IMG/VR virus record: IMGVR_UViG_3300028895_000214
Coordinates: 1-37,830 of that record
Direction: 5' to 3' (one strand)
Length of the DNA stretch: 37,830 bases
Source: a virus
Shown: piece by piece, positions 4,608-33,063 of the stretch
Position numbering within the stretch: the first letter of the stretch is position 1
Layout: each line of letters begins with the position of its first letter
Program-made: the position numbers and the translations under genes
Notes under the pieces: generated by a model
Databases searched by the model: none
Told to the model about the DNA's origin: nothing
The model's input: the letters and a program-made list of their open reading frames with translations, nothing else

Positions 4608-5259
4608 TATTATTTCGATCCCGGACGGTTACACATACCGGACAATCGATGTCGGGGAGATCCGGGCGGACGCTCCCTCGAACGCTCCGGAGGGATCGCT
4701 CGGAGAAAGACTGACAGGATACGCCGCAAAATTTAACACAAGGTCGGAGCTGATCTACGGGCAATTTTACGAGGAGATCGCTCCAGGCGCGTTTAAGGAC
4801 TCGCTCCAGGACGGCGCCGATGTCAGGTTCACTCTGAACCACGACAAGAATTTTGTCCTCGGCCGGAATAAGTCCGGAACGCTGGATCTCCGGGAGGATA
4901 ACACCGGGTTAAAGTTTGAGGTTTGGCCGCCAGAGTCTCAATGGGCCCGGGATCTGTTAACGTCCGTGAAACGCGGAGACATTAATCAATGTTCGTTCTT
5001 ATTCCGGACGATCGAGGACGACTGGCGGGAGGATACGAAATCAGGGCTCCTGGTTCGGACACTTGTAAAAGTTGCACTCCGGGACGTCTCGCTCGTGACT
5101 TATCCCGCTTATGAGGACACGCTGGCGGAGGTTCGGTCGGAATATGAATCCGCCCTGGAAAGATTCAAGGCGGAGCGGATCCAGCCGAGCGAGGCCAGGG
5201 CCCGGGAACTGGATCTCCTGGAGGCGGAGATCTCCCTGGACGAACCCATGGGGGAATAA
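4567..5259 (+). CDS. Prohead maturation protease (HK97 family)
   Basis: A 230-residue serine protease that would cleave the capsid delta domain and scaffold during head maturation. The herpesvirus-assemblin-like signature is present: His92 in TLNHDKNFVLGR, Ser143 in INQCSFLF, and the characteristic LRDVSLVTYPAYEDT (171-185). The ATG at 4567 has GGAGGG at 4553-4558, inside the portal gene. The C-terminal 45 residues are acidic and helical. It lies between portal and capsid as in HK97. Confidence 0.94.
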   Translation: MAQTAQARAPRQNNIISIPDGYTYRTIDVGEIRADAPSNAPEGSLGERLTGYAAKFNTRSELIYGQFYEEIAPGAFKDSLQDGADVRFTLNHDKNFVLGRNKSGTLDLREDNTGLKFEVWPPESQWARDLLTSVKRGDINQCSFLFRTIEDDWREDTKSGLLVRTLVKVALRDVSLVTYPAYEDTLAEVRSEYESALERFKAERIQPSEARARELDLLEAEISLDEPMGE

Positions 5260-23376: not shown

Positions 23377-23889
23377 ATGAGCGACGATTTTAAAGTCCCG
23401 GTCAGCGACAGTCAGGGACATTCGGTCAATCAATATTTTAGATGTCTCCCGGGACACGAGCGGCAAATAGTTAAAATTGTTTCAAGTCAGCGGTTCCCAT
23501 ACCGGACAAAAGGGGATCTGTTAAGACACGCGCTCAAGAGACATTTAGACTTTCTGGAGGATCTCCAGGGCGACGAGGAGATCCCGTCGGTTACGCGACA
23601 AGTCGATGCGATCCTGGAGATCCTCCACGACGACGAGTATTTCGCGGAGTTCCGGTTTGCCATGGAGAAACTCAAGGAACGCGTAGCAAAGCACGTCGCG
23701 GACGGGAGCGATCCCGAGGCCCGGCGGTTGATCCTGGACGTTATTGCTAAAGTTCACAGGATGCCGAGCGGGTTCTGGCGAAACAAGTATCTTGACACTA
23801 TTAAACTGGAGTTCGGGAAATTTATTAACGGCGGCAAGATGAAACTTGGAAACTTGACGCCGGAGGAGGAGGAGAACGACGATCAATGA
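23377..23889 (+). CDS. Possible ribbon-helix-helix DNA-binding protein
   Basis: A 170-residue protein. Residues about 15-58 (HSVNQYFRCLPGHERQIVKI, then 'RTKGDLLRHALKRHLDFLE') have the form of a ribbon-helix-helix domain: a short beta strand followed by two helices, the second starting after a T-K-G-D turn. The rest is helical and acidic. It is the first gene after the candidate origin, and its stop overlaps the helicase start (ATGA). A regulatory or origin-binding role is inferred. Confidence 0.6.
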   Translation: MSDDFKVPVSDSQGHSVNQYFRCLPGHERQIVKIVSSQRFPYRTKGDLLRHALKRHLDFLEDLQGDEEIPSVTRQVDAILEILHDDEYFAEFRFAMEKLKERVAKHVADGSDPEARRLILDVIAKVHRMPSGFWRNKYLDTIKLEFGKFINGGKMKLGNLTPEEEENDDQ

Positions 23890-25439
23890 ATATACTACCA
23901 GCACCGGACAGGCTCGGGCTCCCGGGACAATTTAGATCCTGGAGGCCATACCAGGAGGAGGCGGCGCTCGCGATTATCGACTCCGACCGCGTCCCGCTGA
24001 TCCAGGTTCAGCCGACAGGATCCGGCAAGTCGTTAACCTACGCGGCCGCGGCCCTTCTGGGGTTCGACCGCGCCGTCTTTTTAACCTCGACGAAATCACT
24101 CCAGAGGCAGTTATTGACAGAGTTCGAGCCGATCGGACTTGTCGAGGTCAAGGGTCGGAACGCTTACGAATGTCTTAAACACGGCGGGAACTGCGAGAAC
24201 CAGGCATGTCAATTCGGTTATAATTGCAAGCTCGCCGACGGCGGCTGTTATTATTTCGACGCGATCCGGACGGCGAAACGCTCCCGGTTTGTTTCAACAA
24301 ATTACCATTTTTACACTCTAATTAATCGGTTCAGCGAGAACCCGCTCGGGGAGTTCGATCTCGTAGTCGCGGACGAGGGCCACGGAGTCCCGGAGGTTCT
24401 GACAAGCTGTTTAAAAGAGACGCTGAGACGGGACGAGTTCCCGGACATGCCGGAGTCAACGGACGTCGAAACCTGGCGCGGCTGGATCCGGCTCCAGCTC
24501 GAGCAAATTAGTAATTTGTTAGATGATGAAAAGCGCCGGGGCTCGGCCAAATTCGGCGACATGCGGTTATTGAAAAAGATCTACTCCAGGAAACGCAAGC
24601 TCGAGAACCTCCAGGGGATCGACTCCGGCTGGCTTGTCTATAAAGTAAAAAACGGTTACGAGTTCGCCCCGATAGATATCTCCTCCCATGCCCAGCGGTT
24701 ACTTTTCAGCAACGGCGCCCAGGTTCTTATCACGAGCGCCACGGTCAGGGAGAAAACAGCGGAGCTCCTGGGGTTCGACACTCGTCCCGAGGGTTACAGG
24801 TTCCTTGAATACCCGTCGACGTTCCCGGTCGAGCGGCGGCTCGTTACTTATATCCCGACCGCTCGGGTCGACCACAGGATGGACGAGTTCAGCCGCCGGG
24901 CCTGGTTACAGAAAATAGTTAACATTATCCGGCCCCGGCTGGATCGCAAAGGGATAATTCATTCCGTCAGCTACAAGCGCGGGGAAGAAATAGCGGAGTT
25001 CCTGGAGGATCGGTTCGGATCCGAGCTCACGGTTATAAGTCATAATTCAAAAAATATTAATGATAAAGTCCACGAGTTCCGCGCATGTCACGACGCCGCG
25101 GTTATTATCTCCCCGAGTCTTACGACGGGTTATGACTTTCCGGGCGGACAATGCGAATACCAAATTATTTCAAAACTAGCGTTCCCGGACGGGCGGGATC
25201 CGCTCCACAGGGAACGAATGAAACTCGATCGAGATTACGGGGCTTATCTAACAGCTCAACAGCTCGTCCAGGCGTCGGGGCGCGGGATGCGCTCGGCGAC
25301 TGATCGATGCGAGACATTTATTATTGACGACCACTGGACATGGTTCGGGAAAAAGTTCTCCGAGTTTATCCCGGCCTGGTTCAGATCGGCGTTAAGAAAA
25401 TCCCGGGGGATCCCGGGAGCTCCGGCCCGGGCCTGTTAA
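23886..25439 (+). CDS. XPD/DinG-like SF2 DNA helicase with cysteine cluster
   Basis: A 517-residue helicase. Motifs: 'RSWRPYQEEAALAI' (Q-motif region), Walker A PTGSGKS (43-49), motif Ia 'FLTSTKSLQRQ', Walker B VADEGH (161-166), 'LITSATVREKT' (motif III), and 'QLVQASGRGMRSATDRCETF' (motif VI, about 458-477). Between Walker A and B are Cys96, 103, 108, 114 and 121 followed by YYF, the place and style of the 4Fe-4S domain of XPD/DinG. Walker B is DEGH rather than DEAH. It probably unwinds DNA at replication or repair. It begins the replication block. Confidence 0.88.
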   Translation: MNILPAPDRLGLPGQFRSWRPYQEEAALAIIDSDRVPLIQVQPTGSGKSLTYAAAALLGFDRAVFLTSTKSLQRQLLTEFEPIGLVEVKGRNAYECLKHGGNCENQACQFGYNCKLADGGCYYFDAIRTAKRSRFVSTNYHFYTLINRFSENPLGEFDLVVADEGHGVPEVLTSCLKETLRRDEFPDMPESTDVETWRGWIRLQLEQISNLLDDEKRRGSAKFGDMRLLKKIYSRKRKLENLQGIDSGWLVYKVKNGYEFAPIDISSHAQRLLFSNGAQVLITSATVREKTAELLGFDTRPEGYRFLEYPSTFPVERRLVTYIPTARVDHRMDEFSRRAWLQKIVNIIRPRLDRKGIIHSVSYKRGEEIAEFLEDRFGSELTVISHNSKNINDKVHEFRACHDAAVIISPSLTTGYDFPGGQCEYQIISKLAFPDGRDPLHRERMKLDRDYGAYLTAQQLVQASGRGMRSATDRCETFIIDDHWTWFGKKFSEFIPAWFRSALRKSRGIPGAPARAC

Positions 25440-25704: not shown

Positions 25705-26529
25705 ATGAGTCCTATTAGTTTAAAGCAAGACGATATCGTCGAGGGCGGCGGATTGATAGACGATATCGACGTCCGGTTTGTTAAATGCCGTTTTGAAATG
25801 TTTGATTATGGCGGGAACGCTAAAGTCGAGGTTCCGTCTCTGGGAATTGAAATGCAACCAGTCGACGGGGGCGATATTATTAAACAGAACTGGTCAATCG
25901 GGAAAAAGTCCGACTGGCGCGTCGACGCCGGAGGCAAGGGAATAACTCCAGTCTCCGACCGGATCAAGGGAATATCTGACAAGTCAAATCTGGGGATCCT
26001 GTTAAATTCGATATTCGATGCCGGGTTCCCACAGGACAGGATCGACGACGATATCTCAGTCCTGGAGGACATGGTTTGTCACGTTCTCCGCGTCGCGCCT
26101 CCGGCGAGACCAGGTCTCAAGTCGGAAAAGAAAAACAAGGATTTTGAGACAACGATCCTCACAGTCTCCGAAATTCTTTATTATCCCTGGGAGGAAAAGA
26201 AATCCGGGGCCGCCGCCGCCGCTGACAAGGCAAAAGGCGGAGGCAAAGCCAAGTCAAAGTCTAAGTCGAAAGCTAAAGACAAGGGCAATAACAAGGGCGC
26301 CGACTCAGACGTCGACGTCGAGGCCGAGGCGATCGCTTGTATTACAACAGTCCTGGAGGAGGCCAAGGATAACAGGATCTCAGTCCGGCGCCTGGCTCCG
26401 GCCATGTTTAAAATTATCAAGGATCACCCGGCAAGGAACGAGATCGCGTCCCACGCTACCAGCGACGAGTTCCTGGAGTCCCAGACGTTTTTTGATTACG
26501 ACGACGGGTTCCTGGCACTCCCGGAATAA
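25705..26529 (+). CDS. Putative ssDNA-binding-like recombination accessory protein
   Basis: A 274-residue protein in two parts. Residues about 1-165 are beta-rich (DDIDVRFVKCRFEMFDYGG, WSIGKKSDWRVDAGGKGI) and could be an OB-like or related fold. A flexible Lys/Ser/Ala linker follows (about 172-205, KAKSKSKSKAKDKGNNKG). The C-terminal 65 residues resemble a winged helix ('ACITTVLEEAKDNRISVRRL'). The position directly before an exonuclease and an annealing ATPase suggests ssDNA binding or recombination mediation. That is inference, and I cannot name a family. Confidence 0.55.
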   Translation: MSPISLKQDDIVEGGGLIDDIDVRFVKCRFEMFDYGGNAKVEVPSLGIEMQPVDGGDIIKQNWSIGKKSDWRVDAGGKGITPVSDRIKGISDKSNLGILLNSIFDAGFPQDRIDDDISVLEDMVCHVLRVAPPARPGLKSEKKNKDFETTILTVSEILYYPWEEKKSGAAAAADKAKGGGKAKSKSKSKAKDKGNNKGADSDVDVEAEAIACITTVLEEAKDNRISVRRLAPAMFKIIKDHPARNEIASHATSDEFLESQTFFDYDDGFLALPE

Positions 26530-26618: not shown

Positions 26619-27185
26619 ATGGAAATAAAAGTTATTGAAACTGAATTGATCCTCCAGAGTCACTCGGGAATGAACCGGGCGCCGGGTCTCCACTTGTCCG
26701 ACGTGCTCGACTCCCTGGAGGAGGAGGTTTTTAAAATTAAGCGCCCAGCTCGGAGCTGGGGCGAGGGAGACACTATTTGCATGGACACGGGGTTTTTATT
26801 CGAGGAGGCGCTCAGCTACGCGATGTCCGACAGTATGGCCGAGCGCCTGGACTCAGAGGTCGAGCTCGACGGGATCCTGGGATCCCCGGACGGGATCCGG
26901 TTCGAGACGGATCCATGGACGCTCGAGGAGTTTAAAGCCACCTGGAAAAGTTCAAACAATAGAGTCGAGGATAACTGGCGCTGGCTCACACAGATTAAAA
27001 GTTACTTGTGGATGATCGGCGGCGGGATGGACACTTGTATTTTACGTGTTCTTTATCTGAACGGAAACTACAAGGGATCCGGGCCCCAATATCGCGCATA
27101 TGAATTGACGTTCACGGAGCCGGAGCTCCGGAGTAATTGGAAAATGATTAAAAAAGAAGCGCGGCGCCGCGGCTGGATCGAATAA
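26619..27185 (+). CDS. PD-(D/E)XK exonuclease (RecB/Cas4-like)
   Basis: A 188-residue nuclease. The core motifs are in order: Gly58 and Glu62 in TGFLFEEALS, Asp91 in GSPDGI, Glu104 and Lys106 in LEEFKATWK, and Gln125/Tyr129 in LTQIKSYLWM. This is the RecB-type arrangement with the motif III Q-x3-Y. It lacks the Cys cluster of Cas4. It would resect phage DNA ends for recombination with the Sak4-like ATPase encoded nearby. The start has GGAGGG upstream (26603-26608). Confidence 0.85.
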   Translation: MEIKVIETELILQSHSGMNRAPGLHLSDVLDSLEEEVFKIKRPARSWGEGDTICMDTGFLFEEALSYAMSDSMAERLDSEVELDGILGSPDGIRFETDPWTLEEFKATWKSSNNRVEDNWRWLTQIKSYLWMIGGGMDTCILRVLYLNGNYKGSGPQYRAYELTFTEPELRSNWKMIKKEARRRGWIE

Positions 27186-27251: not shown

Positions 27252-27506
27252 TTGAATAATTATAAAAAATTAATCACCCTGGAGGAGGCGGAGTCCCGGT
27301 TCTCCAGGAGCGGCCCGGGATTTATCCGACTGTTAGGGATCCGGGGACTCATTAATATTTACAATTACGACGGCCGGGAGCTGGTCGACGAGTTCGAGCT
27401 CTGCAAAATGCTAGAGACGGAGGCGGAGAACGGAACCTCCAGGGAGAACGATCTCGAGTCCAGGGCCCCGGGGCCAGAGGAGGTCAGAACAAATGACAAA
27501 AATTAA
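27252..27506 (+). CDS. Small protein, possibly DNA-binding
   Basis: An 84-residue protein with a TTG start at 27252, supported by GGAGG at 27239-27243 (8-base spacing). The N-terminal 55 residues (LITLEEAESRFSRSGPGFIR, then IYNYDGRELVDEFELCKML) are compatible with a small winged or excisionase-like helix-turn-helix in which 'YDGRELVDEFEL' forms the wing. The tail is Glu-rich. The end overlaps the Sak4-like ATPase gene by 14 bases. Confidence 0.6.
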   Translation: MNNYKKLITLEEAESRFSRSGPGFIRLLGIRGLINIYNYDGRELVDEFELCKMLETEAENGTSRENDLESRAPGPEEVRTNDKN

Positions 27507-28221
27507 ATTGCCGAGCTCGTTTGAGCTGGCGACCGGGGAGGTCAGATCCCGGCTCGTCGTCGGACTATGCGCCCGGGAGAAATGCGGCAAGACGCATTTT
27601 TCATTGACAGCACCAGGCCCGATCGCTTTTTTTAATTTCGATATCGGAACCGAGGGAGTCGTCGGGAAATTTATCGACGACAAGGAAATCTATATCAGTA
27701 ATTATGATCCTGGATCCGAGGATCCAGAGTCGGAATGGGAACGCTTCGAGTCGGATTATCGCTCGATAATGCGCGTCCCGGAGATCCGGACGTTTATCAT
27801 TGATACAGCGACGGAGGCTTGGGAGCTCCTCCGGATCTCAGAATTTGGAAAACTCGATCAAGTTATGCCGCACCTATACGGGCCCGTCAATGCTACTTAT
27901 AGGCGGATGATCCGGGACGGTTACGACTGCGGGAAAAACATTATCTTGATCCATAAAATGAAGGCGGAGTATGTCAATAATGACAGAACCGGGAATTATG
28001 TCCAGGCGGGGTTCGCGGACACTCCCTTTTTGACACAAGTTAACCTCCAGATGTTTAGGGACTATAACTCCGAGACGGAGCGGACGGAGTTCTCCGCGCT
28101 GATAAGGGATTGCAGACAGACGCCGGAGATTAATAACGAAGTCCTCGAGGGCCCGCTCTGCACATTCCCGACTCTGGCGTTAATGGTTCTCCCGGACAGC
28201 GACGAGGAGGACTGGTATTAA
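27493..28221 (+). CDS. Sak4-like single-strand annealing ATPase (RecA-like core)
   Basis: A 242-residue ATPase of the AAA_24/Sak4 type. Walker A: VVGLCAREKCGKTHFSL (about 22-38), with GKT but a stretched loop. Then 'IAFFNFDIGTEGVV' and Walker B 'RTFIIDTATEAWELL'. A central segment 'NIILIHKMKAEYVNND' carries the sensor-like strand. The usual role is annealing or filament formation on ssDNA, with phage SSB and exonuclease. Here the exonuclease and a possible SSB are encoded just upstream, so the set is complete. Confidence 0.82.
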   Translation: MTKIKLPSSFELATGEVRSRLVVGLCAREKCGKTHFSLTAPGPIAFFNFDIGTEGVVGKFIDDKEIYISNYDPGSEDPESEWERFESDYRSIMRVPEIRTFIIDTATEAWELLRISEFGKLDQVMPHLYGPVNATYRRMIRDGYDCGKNIILIHKMKAEYVNNDRTGNYVQAGFADTPFLTQVNLQMFRDYNSETERTEFSALIRDCRQTPEINNEVLEGPLCTFPTLALMVLPDSDEEDWY

Positions 28222-29271: not shown

Positions 29272-29415
29272 ATGTCAATGTTAGAGGATCTCGAGGCGAT
29301 GTTTCCAGAGCTCACGGACGAGGATCTGGTATTTTTAACAAACAAACAAACAGATTCAATGGTTTATTTACCTTATTCAGAGGAGGACACTATCAATGTT
29401 AAGGAAAAAAGTTAA
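29272..29415 (+). CDS. Small acidic protein upstream of the PurZ-like gene
   Basis: A 47-residue protein (start MSMLEDLEAMFPELTDEDLV, end EEDTINVKEKS). GGGAGG lies 8-9 bases upstream of the ATG at 29272, among the best sites in the genome. The end overlaps the start of the next gene by 20 bases. It is strongly acidic and helical. No family recognised. The coupling suggests that it works with, or regulates the translation of, the synthetase-like protein. Confidence 0.6.
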   Translation: MSMLEDLEAMFPELTDEDLVFLTNKQTDSMVYLPYSEEDTINVKEKS

Positions 29416-30379
29416 TTTCATAATGGGCGCCCAGGCGGGACACGAGGGAGTCGGGGACGCGGCGGCTTACCTGGTCAGCAAATACCAGCTCGATGTCGTT
29501 ACCGCTTACTCAGCGACTTTTCCATGGCCGGAGCACTCCGCGATCGCGAACGGGAAAACAGTCAGGACGCGCCAGATCCCGGTCAGTATTCACGGGCACA
29601 CATTCGCCGTCGCGTTTTTCGGGCCCGGGTCGACGATCTCCCTGGAGGATCTCCAGGAGGATCTCGCGGAGATGTCGCCGGAATGTTGCGCGGTCGACGC
29701 CCAGGCGTTAGTCGTCGAGGATATCAACGGACGTCCCCAGGCGGCCAGCGCCGGGAGTCACGACATTTTGAAAAACGATCTCCGCCTGGTCAAACCGGAC
29801 GTTAGGGATCTCCTCCTGGACGCGCTCAAGTCCGGGGCGACGATTCTTTGCGAGGTTTACGGCGGTTTCGACCGATGCTCGATCCACGGCGTCGGGATCC
29901 GGGGAGCGGAGGAGCCGACAAGATATCACAAGCCAGTTAATCCGCTCGCGGCCATGGCGGAGCTCGGGCTCCCACAGAGGTATTTAGGCCACGTCTACGG
30001 AGTATTTGAACCGACGATCCGCTGGCGCGGGTTCGAGTCCCTCCCGTCGGATCTCTACGCGGACTCCGAGATCCTGGGAACCGTCCCGGCGTCTCACGAC
30101 TCGGAGGATCCCCAGGAGATCGCGTTCGACTTTTCGTTCGACAGGATCCAGAAATTTATCCAGGTCTGCGATCCGGATCTGCTTTATCTGAGCTCGGCGG
30201 AGCTCCTGGATCCCAGGGTCGCCAAGGTTCGTAAATATAAGGATCTCCCGGACTCAGTCACCGGGTTAATTAGTCAAATAGAGTCCCGGACAGCAAAAGC
30301 GGTCGCATTTGTCGGAGCGGGCCGGAGTATTCTCGATAGGAAAATTGACCGGATGGGGCTTGACACGAGGAGGTACTAG
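29396..30379 (+). CDS. Adenylosuccinate synthetase-like protein (PurZ/PurA superfamily)
   Basis: A 327-residue protein whose segments follow E. coli PurA in order: 'NFIMGAQAGHEGVGD' for the GDEGKGK loop, PEHSAIANGKT (His47) for AGHTLVINGEK, 'FFGPGSTISLEDLQEDL' for IGNGVVLSPAALMKEM, 'SGATILCEVYGG' for the FEGAQG region, 'YGVFEPTIRWRGFESLPSDL' for KAYSTRVGAGPFPTEL, and FVGAGRSILDRKI for STGPDRTETMI. It is about 100 residues shorter than PurA, close to phage PurZ. The loop is altered: the catalytic Asp is His16, and the Lys residues are Val19 and Asp21. The His acid is kept. It may make a modified purine nucleotide, or have another role. The polymerase gene follows after 5 bases. Confidence 0.7.
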   Translation: MLRKKVNFIMGAQAGHEGVGDAAAYLVSKYQLDVVTAYSATFPWPEHSAIANGKTVRTRQIPVSIHGHTFAVAFFGPGSTISLEDLQEDLAEMSPECCAVDAQALVVEDINGRPQAASAGSHDILKNDLRLVKPDVRDLLLDALKSGATILCEVYGGFDRCSIHGVGIRGAEEPTRYHKPVNPLAAMAELGLPQRYLGHVYGVFEPTIRWRGFESLPSDLYADSEILGTVPASHDSEDPQEIAFDFSFDRIQKFIQVCDPDLLYLSSAELLDPRVAKVRKYKDLPDSVTGLISQIESRTAKAVAFVGAGRSILDRKIDRMGLDTRRY

Positions 30380-30384
30380 TCACA

Positions 30385-33063
30385 ATGAATGATTATCCCC
30401 AGATGTTATCAGATCCCGAGATCTCCGGGGAGGACAAGCGACGGGAACTGGCAAAGCGCCGGATTATCCATTGTCGCGAATGTCCGCTCCGGGGTCGTCC
30501 CGTCGTCCCGGGATCCGGCAAGCTCGGGACGGGTCTCCTCCTGGTCGGGGAGGCCCCGGGGCGCCACGAGGCTAAGATCTCCGGGCTCCCGTTCACGGGC
30601 GACGCCGGGGTCGAGCTCAACAGCTATCTAACACGGGCCGGGCTCAGTCGCGACGCGTTCTTTGTTACAAATACGGTCAAATGCTGGCCGCCGTCGAACC
30701 GGGATCCGACGCCGGAGGAGAAATTCCGATGCTCTGGCTGGCTGGAGGAGGAAATCACCCTGGCGCGTCCCGATATCATCGGGGCCCTGGGAGCGGCCGC
30801 GACGAGACATTTTTTATTTCTCGAGCTGGACTTTGATCCCACAATGGAAATGACTCACGGGCTCCATTATCAGATCGATCTCCTCCTGGGCCAGAGAGAC
30901 GTCAAGTCCGCGACCGTCGTCCCGTGTTACCACCCGGCGCTCGGACTCCACGACACGCGGAGAATGTCGATTATTTTCCAGGATTACGAGTCCCTCGCCA
31001 GGGCGGTCAGAGGAGACGGGGAGGACGATCCGAAAAAAGTCTGGAGCCGGAGCGGGGAGTTCATAGATCCGGAGGATATCACGCTCTGGGAGTTAACAGA
31101 TCCGGACGAGATCGAAACCGCGTTCCGGGTCGCGGTCGAGCGGGATCTGACATATATCGCCCTTGATACAGAGTCCCTCGCCGACGGTTCTCCCTTTTGT
31201 GTCTCCGGGGCCCTGGAGGGGACGGCGGCTTTTATGATCGCGGCTGATAACGCCCGGGGTCTCGAGTCCCTGGCGGGGTTTGTCGCGACTCCCGGGGTTT
31301 TAACTATCCTCCACAATTCCCTCTGGGATCTCCCGATCCTGGCCGCGATGGGGATCCGGCCCGCCGCGTTCGTCGACACAATGATTATGAGTTATCTCCT
31401 GGGGGATCTCCCGCAAGGTCTCAAACCGCTGAGTTATCGACTCCTCGGGGCGAGAATGACCAAATACCAGGACATGATCGACGAGGCGAGCCGGGATCTC
31501 GCTCTCAATTATCTCCTCCGGGCCCAGGGAGGGAGTTATCCGGATCCAGACGAGGAGATCGGGTTCAAACCGGACGGGGAGATCCATATCAAGCGCCCTC
31601 AGAATATCGCTAAGAAAATAAAACGGGCGTTAAATGATTACGCCAAGGATCCCGGGGTCGATCTCCGGGCCCGCTGGTCGAAAATGGACGGAACCGACGT
31701 CGTCGAGTCCCGGCTCGGCCCGATGCCGGAGGCGGATCTCAGTTTTATCTCCAGGGACGAGGCGGTCGATTATGCTTGCGAGGACGCGCTCAACACTTTT
31801 AGGATTTATCCGCTACTCCGGGCCCAGATCGCCGCCGCGGAGCTCCTGGAAATTTTATGGATCGACTGCGCCCTGGTTCCCATGGTTAACGACATGCAGA
31901 CACGCGGGATGCTAGTCGACCAGATCCCGCTCCTGGAGATCGGCGAACTATGCGACGACCGGATGGACGAGTTAAACGCGGAGATCGACAAGCTCGCCGG
32001 GCGCCGGGTTAATCCAGCGAGTCCTCCCCAGGTCAAGGCGTTCTTAAAGTCCCAGGGCGTCAGGGTCAAAAACACGGCCCAGGAGACGCTCAAGGTATTA
32101 TCACACCCGGCGGCGCGAAAAGTCGTCTCCTGGCGCGAATATCAAAAGTTAAAGGGGACATATGTCGACAACCTGGTCGAACGCTCCTCCCACGGGGACG
32201 GACGCGTCAGAGGGCGGTTTAAATTGACCAGGACGGCGACGGGTCGAATCGCGATGGAGGATCCTAATTTAATGAACATCCCGACCAGGACGGAGGAGGG
32301 TCGCCGGATCCGGGGGGCGTTCCGGGCCGCGCCAGGGTTTAAACTCATGTCATGTGATTACGCTCAGATCGAGATGCGGGTCGCCGCGCATTGTTCGGGC
32401 GACAAGTTGATGCTCGATATTTTCCGAAACGACAAGGATTTTCACTCAATAACCGCGTCCCAGGCGTTCGGGATCCCGATCGACCAGGTCGACGAGCTCC
32501 AGCACCGTTATCCGGCAAAACGGGTCTCGTTCGGGGTTCTTTATGCTATCACGGGGCAAGGGTTATTGACTCAGCTCGAGGCGGCCGGGGCCCAGGGATG
32601 GACGCTCCAGAAATGCGAGGATTTTATAAAAGAATGGTTCCGGGTTTACTCCGGGGTCGCCTCCTGGATGGAGTCCGTCAGATCCCACGCTAAGCGGTTC
32701 GGGTTCGTCAAGGATATGTTCGGCCGCCGTCGGTTAACTCCAGGAGTCAAGTCAGCACATAAACGGATCCGGGAGGAGGCGCTCCGGGAGGCTTGCAACG
32801 CGCCCGTTCAGTCAGGAGCGCAAGGAATTATCAAGGTCGCCATGGGCCAATTGATCCCGGTTTATCGTCAATTCAACGCCTGGCCGCTCCTCCAGATCCA
32901 CGACGATATTATTTTCGAGATCCCGGAGGAGACACTCGACCGGGCAGTCCCGGCGATCGTTAAAACGATGGAGAACGCGGTCAAGCTGAGCCTCCCGACT
33001 CCGGTTGATCCGAAAGTCGGCGACCGCTGGAATAGTTTGAAGGAATATAAACCAGGAAACTAA
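30385..33063 (+). CDS. Fusion of 4Fe-4S uracil-DNA glycosylase with family A DNA polymerase
   Basis: An 892-residue replicative enzyme. Residues 25-205 are a family 4-type UDG: Cys30, Cys33, Cys100 and Cys116 for the cluster, GEAPGRHEAKISGLPFTG (55-72), 'FVTNTVKCWPPSNRDPTP' and HPA at 183-185. Residues about 245-480 are the 3'-5' exonuclease with ALDTES (Asp261, Glu263), HNSLWD (310-315) and DYACED (462-467). The polymerase has motif A SCDYAQIEMR (Asp658), motif B AKRVSFGVLYAITGQG (Lys712, Tyr720; Ala in place of the usual Gly) and motif C QIHDDIIFE (839-841). Both enzyme halves look intact. GGAGG at 30369-30373. Confidence 0.9.
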   Translation: MNDYPQMLSDPEISGEDKRRELAKRRIIHCRECPLRGRPVVPGSGKLGTGLLLVGEAPGRHEAKISGLPFTGDAGVELNSYLTRAGLSRDAFFVTNTVKCWPPSNRDPTPEEKFRCSGWLEEEITLARPDIIGALGAAATRHFLFLELDFDPTMEMTHGLHYQIDLLLGQRDVKSATVVPCYHPALGLHDTRRMSIIFQDYESLARAVRGDGEDDPKKVWSRSGEFIDPEDITLWELTDPDEIETAFRVAVERDLTYIALDTESLADGSPFCVSGALEGTAAFMIAADNARGLESLAGFVATPGVLTILHNSLWDLPILAAMGIRPAAFVDTMIMSYLLGDLPQGLKPLSYRLLGARMTKYQDMIDEASRDLALNYLLRAQGGSYPDPDEEIGFKPDGEIHIKRPQNIAKKIKRALNDYAKDPGVDLRARWSKMDGTDVVESRLGPMPEADLSFISRDEAVDYACEDALNTFRIYPLLRAQIAAAELLEILWIDCALVPMVNDMQTRGMLVDQIPLLEIGELCDDRMDELNAEIDKLAGRRVNPASPPQVKAFLKSQGVRVKNTAQETLKVLSHPAARKVVSWREYQKLKGTYVDNLVERSSHGDGRVRGRFKLTRTATGRIAMEDPNLMNIPTRTEEGRRIRGAFRAAPGFKLMSCDYAQIEMRVAAHCSGDKLMLDIFRNDKDFHSITASQAFGIPIDQVDELQHRYPAKRVSFGVLYAITGQGLLTQLEAAGAQGWTLQKCEDFIKEWFRVYSGVASWMESVRSHAKRFGFVKDMFGRRRLTPGVKSAHKRIREEALREACNAPVQSGAQGIIKVAMGQLIPVYRQFNAWPLLQIHDDIIFEIPEETLDRAVPAIVKTMENAVKLSLPTPVDPKVGDRWNSLKEYKPGN

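Follow-up and report, generated by a model that had tools for sequence, protein, structure and literature searches.

A DNA polymerase I in which a uracil-DNA glycosylase (UDG) precedes an exonuclease and a polymerase domain has been described in the Pseudomonas phage PaBG group (PMC7412058). PaBG is a jumbo phage; the N-terminal UDG of its enzyme was modelled on T. thermophilus 1ui0, and the BLASTP searches of its authors gave no close UDG outside their own group of phages (PMC7412058). UDG-like domains are also located at the PolA N terminus of the SPO1-type phage SP8 and of Lysinibacillus phage LysYB1. In the SP8 domain, neither the four cysteines nor GEAPG remain, while the LysYB1 domain has the cysteines without GEAPG. 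In vaccinia virus, a UDG is likewise physically part of the viral replicase (the D4-A20-E9 holoenzyme), but D4 belongs to another UDG family, forms a separate chain, and is joined to a family B polymerase. Biochemistry on any UDG-PolA fusion was not found in the open literature searched.

Here, we analyze the UDG-polymerase fusion (UDG-Pol) encoded in a 37,830-nucleotide stretch of viral DNA (IMG/VR record IMGVR_UViG_3300028895_000214), referred to as the window. Its domain order is identical to that of PaBG, and the enzyme is therefore not a new architecture. In contrast to SP8 and LysYB1, its UDG is intact, and unlike in vaccinia, glycosylase and family A polymerase share one chain. We consider it probable, though well short of certain, that UDG-Pol is a phage replicase that carries its own uracil repair and would remove uracil in physical coupling with replication.

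Domain architecture of UDG-Pol

The UDG-Pol gene (30385-33063) is a single unbroken frame of 892 codons (892 aa) with an ATG start, preceded by GAGGAGG and separated from the upstream gene by 5 bases. A family-4-type iron-sulfur UDG, a flexible linker of ~20 residues, a 3'-5' exonuclease, and a family A polymerase follow each other along the chain (Table 1). Pfam assigns residues 42-185 to the UDG superfamily (PF03167, E 1.7e-24; 86.9 bits against a curated cut-off of 24.3), residues 253-366 to the exonuclease PF01612 (E 3e-9), and residues 519-883 to DNA_pol_A PF00476 (E 6e-98). The AlphaFold model has a mean pLDDT of 90 and a pTM of 0.88, with pLDDT values of ~50 only at the N terminus, in the linker, and at the C-terminal end; in fold it most resembles the Klenow fragment (TM 0.86 on target). 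All residues of exo I-III and of polymerase motifs A, B, and C listed in Table 1 are intact. Matches and residues together identify a family A DNA polymerase with 3'-5' exonuclease, and the UDG, N-terminal to both in one ORF, makes the protein a UDG-PolA fusion of the SPO1/PaBG type. An earlier note on the window had read an intact proofreading exonuclease and polymerase in the same chain as the UDG, which Pfam and the catalytic residues confirm.

Table 1. Features of UDG-Pol and of the genes upstream (window positions)
Feature	Positions	Strand	Remarks
DinG/Rad3-type helicase	23886..25439	+	conserved module gene
Conserved module protein, function not assigned	25705..26529	+	conserved in relatives
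Conserved module protein	26619..27185	+	PD-(D/E)XK-like by eye only (GSPDG...EEFK); no Pfam match
AAA_24/Sak4-like ATPase	27493..28221	+	conserved module gene
XPF/Hef-like ERCC4 nuclease with helix-hairpin-helix	28397..29110	+	conserved upstream neighbor in the UDG-Pol clade
PurA-fold protein without PurA/PurZ active-site motifs	29396..30379	+	cargo gene, variable slot
Family-4-type UDG domain, residues ~1-210	30385..31014	+	Cys30/33/100/116, GEAPG..E, PF.G, TN...C, HPA
Low-confidence (flexible) linker, residues ~211-230	31015..31074	+	pLDDT ~50 in model
3'-5' proofreading exonuclease domain	31075..31830	+	D261/E263, D315, Y463/D467 (exo I-III)
Family A polymerase domain	31831..33060	+	D658/E663, R708/K712/F716/Y720/A721, H839/D840 (motifs A, B, C)

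The UDG domain is of the family 4 type

Alignment locates all four cluster cysteines in the UDG domain (Cys30, Cys33, Cys100, and Cys116), together with G55-E-A-P-G59, Glu62, Phe70, Asn96, Asn105, and His183-Pro-Ala; the cysteines, GEAPG, and HPA that the earlier note had picked out in the N-terminal part are thus all found. The domain thereby displays the residue pattern of family 4 (four cluster cysteines, GE-PG..E, Asn, HPA/HPS), and the closest solved structures are family 4 enzymes, namely T. maritima TM0511 (6e-28), S. tokodaii 4zbx, and T. thermophilus 1ui0. Its cluster cysteines and active-site residues align with those of TM0511, Tth UDGa, and S. tokodaii UDG. While these enzymes are free-standing, the domain of the window is fused and narrowly misses, by ~6 bits, the cut-off of the curated family-4 model TIGR00758 (119.2 against 125.3 bits for the whole protein). 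Because of this miss, we file it as UDG superfamily, family-4-type; the fusion relatives L036, L053, and L054 pass the same cut-off.

From the conserved residues, we infer that the domain would carry an Fe-S cluster and excise uracil. M. smegmatis UdgX is also among the sequence matches of the UDG part, as would be expected of a UdgX-like covalent trap that binds uracil without excising it. Such a trap is very improbable, as the T. maritima, S. tokodaii, and Thermus family-4 enzymes outscore UdgX by far and the UdgX model TIGR03914 gives 74.3 against a cut-off of 190.

UDG-PolA fusions are widespread and mostly intact

Searching IMG/VR with an alignment of UDGs, we obtained >530 relatives, the best 80 of which were inspected for fusion; 52 of these 80 carry UDG and PolA in one ORF. 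Phage records with the fusion include ctfzr933, ctLwi270 (annotated there as two ORFs), vir526, P744, PMBT14, MaInes, Mel-JY34, phiXF1, SP8, LysYB1, and others. Single-sequence scans of IMG/VR with the polymerase and with the PurZ-like protein returned solely the identical sister contig, and a scan of genome contigs matched only ordinary cellular Pol I, in no case fused. The survey reveals a much wider spread of UDG-PolA than was visible to the PaBG authors. The earlier caution that the fusion may not be unique is borne out by the SPO1-type, PaBG-type, and IMG/VR examples, and SP8 provides a case of the UDG-like domains on SPO1-type polymerases that the earlier note had mentioned.

Several loci are interrupted or divided. 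The SP8 polymerase gene lies in two parts with an HNH endonuclease ORF between them (L012, 4950-8611), an intein-like insert sits inside motif A of the UDG-Pol of L054 (5947-9444), and in L031 a UDG ORF (2234-2830) precedes polymerase ORFs that are distinct from it, as might result from the splitting of a fusion.

All twelve checked UDG positions, catalytic and cluster, are kept in 47 of 60 aligned fusions when Asp is allowed at Asn105, a count biased upward at the positions demanded by the scan patterns (GEA(P/L)G or TN..KC) and free of this bias at the N-terminal cysteines, Glu62, Phe70, Cys116, and His183. The cysteines tend to vanish jointly (SP8, L069, L097, L105, and MelJY34), which is the behavior expected of cluster ligands; L069, L097, L105, and MelJY34 keep the active site despite this loss. 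Column conservation amounts to 0.48 for the UDG and 0.47 for the polymerase. The sister contig is identical in the UDG-Pol region, and dN/dS was therefore taken from pairs of related fusions rather than from the window's own gene; values for the UDG range from 0.06 to 0.21, similar to those of the respective polymerase domains. The UDG is thus under purifying selection in related fusions.

In a minority of fusions the UDG is degenerate, which argues against a uracil-repair role and indicates that catalysis is not indispensable everywhere. The domain persists despite lost cysteines or active-site residues in SP8, P744, PMBT14, L069, and L097, and vaccinia D4, a UDG belonging to a processivity factor (PMC10253040, PMC5682278), offers a precedent for a domain that acts chiefly in DNA binding or processivity, with catalysis secondary. 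We regard such a D4-like role as the main rival explanation, unlikely yet to be taken seriously. The window and 46 other fusions retain every catalytic residue, needless for pure tethering, and D4 is a separate chain from another UDG family. Uracil removal by the replicase itself remains the reading that we favor.

UDG-Pol belongs to a conserved gene module

We placed the polymerase domain in a tree of 86 sequences (a quick search without bootstraps, with several long branches and without PaBG). UDG-Pol falls into a 23-member clade consisting exclusively of fusions (SH-aLRT 99) and, within it, into an inner group of 10 (SH-aLRT 98). The fusion label requires four changes on this tree, at least three of them forced by supported branches, so that gain and loss have recurred.

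Close relatives share the order helicase, two uncharacterized proteins, Sak4-like ATPase, ERCC4/HHH nuclease, and UDG-Pol, and the succession of helicase, ATPase, ERCC4, and UDG-Pol is retained where UDG-Pol identity is only 32-43%. The ERCC4 gene lies upstream in 21 of the 22 other clade members; the upstream sequence of the remaining one is only 2.5 kb long. Between ERCC4 and UDG-Pol, different relatives harbor unrelated genes. In L056, a small ORF in this slot (4659-5048) resembles, by eye only, nucleoside deoxyribosyltransferases (YIAGPYT).

In another clade (L004, L007, and L008), genes for thymidylate synthase, dCMP deaminase, or dUMP-hydroxymethylase-like proteins adjoin the fusion, and thymidylate synthase lies near it in 8 of 52 loci. 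These neighbors would suit a UDG that tells modified pyrimidines apart from uracil where the phage has altered thymine, thereby policing incomplete modification. For UDG-Pol, this is improbable: none of these genes was found in the window, and the L004/L007/L008 clade is distinct from that of the window.

Neither the polymerase nor its neighbor is of the Z-DNA type

In the window, the slot is occupied by a gene (29396-30379) whose product has a PurA-type fold (its structural model is of low confidence), as do the PurZ proteins of Z-DNA phages; it is seen only in the window phage and its near-identical sister contig. The earlier note had tied UDG-Pol to this PurZ-like neighbor and had suspected that a change in motif B alters base selectivity. 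The fold and the distance of 5 bases would fit a Z-selective (2-aminoadenine) polymerase partnered with it. However, the neighbor scores 30 against a cut-off of 300 with the curated PurZ model and lacks every active-site motif common to 16 PurZ relatives. Its P-loop reads GHEGVGD instead of GSTGKG, with Val at the P-loop Lys and no GTTGRG, and NAGH and STxQGS-type motifs, retained in 16/16 PurZ relatives (one of which, L020, ends before the P-loop), are absent. At the catalytic Asp/Ser position (PurA Asp13) it has His, where Ser is found in 147/147 phage PurZ (PMC12884076). By Ser, GSTGKG, NAGH, and STxQGS alike, it falls outside PurZ.

Decay to a pseudogene was considered for the neighbor and rejected: the frame is open and codon usage matches other genes. 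For the same reasons, a maintained, catalytically altered protein is likelier; judged from its sequence, the neighbor probably has another or no catalytic role and is a candidate pseudoenzyme or new activity.

The polymerase likewise differs from DpoZ, which shares the PolA fold with proofreading but has ~620 aa, no UDG, and Phe in helix O. Within helix O, a single substitution, Tyr to Phe, is common to both DpoZ clades (PMC8599892), and in 15/15 DpoZ sequences examined this Tyr is Phe and the preceding Phe is Leu, whereas UDG-Pol keeps Tyr720 and Phe716 like ordinary PolA. A Gly-to-Ala change in helix O, adjacent to Tyr720, is real (A721). As a selectivity switch it was rejected, since position 721 varies among other fusions (L, M, S, I, E, R, D). 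Both DpoZ models are missed (NF038380, DpoZ_1, 122.9 against 500; NF038381, DpoZ_2, 60.1 against 350), and in the 86-sequence tree DpoZ forms a separate clade apart from UDG-Pol (100% SH-aLRT). By residue, model score, and placement, UDG-Pol is not a DpoZ.

Co-occurrence points in the same direction. No UDG was found in any of 17 PurZ phages examined. By the earlier note's own criterion, a spread of the fusion among phages without a purine gene would count against its proposal, and a PF00709 match is absent from 59 of 61 fusion records, many of them fragments. The two with a match are the window's sister and one other phage (L054/L110/L202), whose PurZ0-like gene has the diagnostic Ser and an intact P-loop and lies by dUTPase and ribonucleotide reductase (L110, 919-1977, minus strand; L202, 792-4950). 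Its intein-bearing UDG-Pol is located elsewhere in the genome and retains the helix-O tyrosine. This related phage lends the Z-selective reading some support and demonstrates that UDG-Pol and a PurZ-type gene can coexist, though rarely. A dUTPase-type DutZ is absent from the window. On motifs, curated models, tree, and co-occurrence, we reject the link to purines or Z-DNA, and a Z-selective UDG-Pol is highly unlikely. Of the earlier note, the fused, apparently intact iron-sulfur UDG and the SPO1-type precedent stand, while altered base selectivity and the PurZ link find no support.

Proposed uracil removal coupled to replication

In the proposed mechanism, the N-terminal iron-sulfur UDG, which occupies the place of the 5' nuclease of cellular Pol I and hangs on a flexible linker, would scan DNA near the primer terminus and excise uracil, whether deaminated cytosine or incorporated dUMP is its source. 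The Klenow-like part would then resynthesize, while other nucleases, plausibly with the upstream ERCC4/HHH nuclease among them, would have to break the strand at the abasic site and remove the displaced flap. Intact residues, conservation in 47/60 fusions, low dN/dS, a confident fold, and the kept gene order argue for a uracil-repair replicase; coupling to the fork and the part of the ERCC4/HHH nuclease are what we infer. Uracil may enter the phage DNA, as the window has no detectable dUTPase. Against this role, no phage AP endonuclease was identified.

In L079 and L080 (ORF from 2545 in both) and in L107 (ORF from 829), a family-4-type UDG is fused C-terminally to a family C polymerase, DNA polymerase III alpha; the L107 protein also matches an intein model. 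As these polymerases are unrelated to family A, tethering of a UDG to the replicase has apparently been selected more than once, and its occurrence on both families suggests convergence. More tentatively, it is possible, if doubtful, that iron-sulfur UDGs joined phage replicases repeatedly and by convergence, N-terminally in family A polymerases and C-terminally in those of family C, and that UDG-Pol and the XPF-type nuclease of the window's lineage constitute a self-contained, fork-coupled repair machine.

UDG-Pol is of interest for its spread, for the nuclease conserved beside it, and for what appears to be convergence. Our survey supplies a panel of intact and degenerate UDG versions. If UDG-Pol is active, one and the same chain both removes lesions and replicates DNA, and the effect of fork-coupled uracil removal would become testable with a single purified protein.
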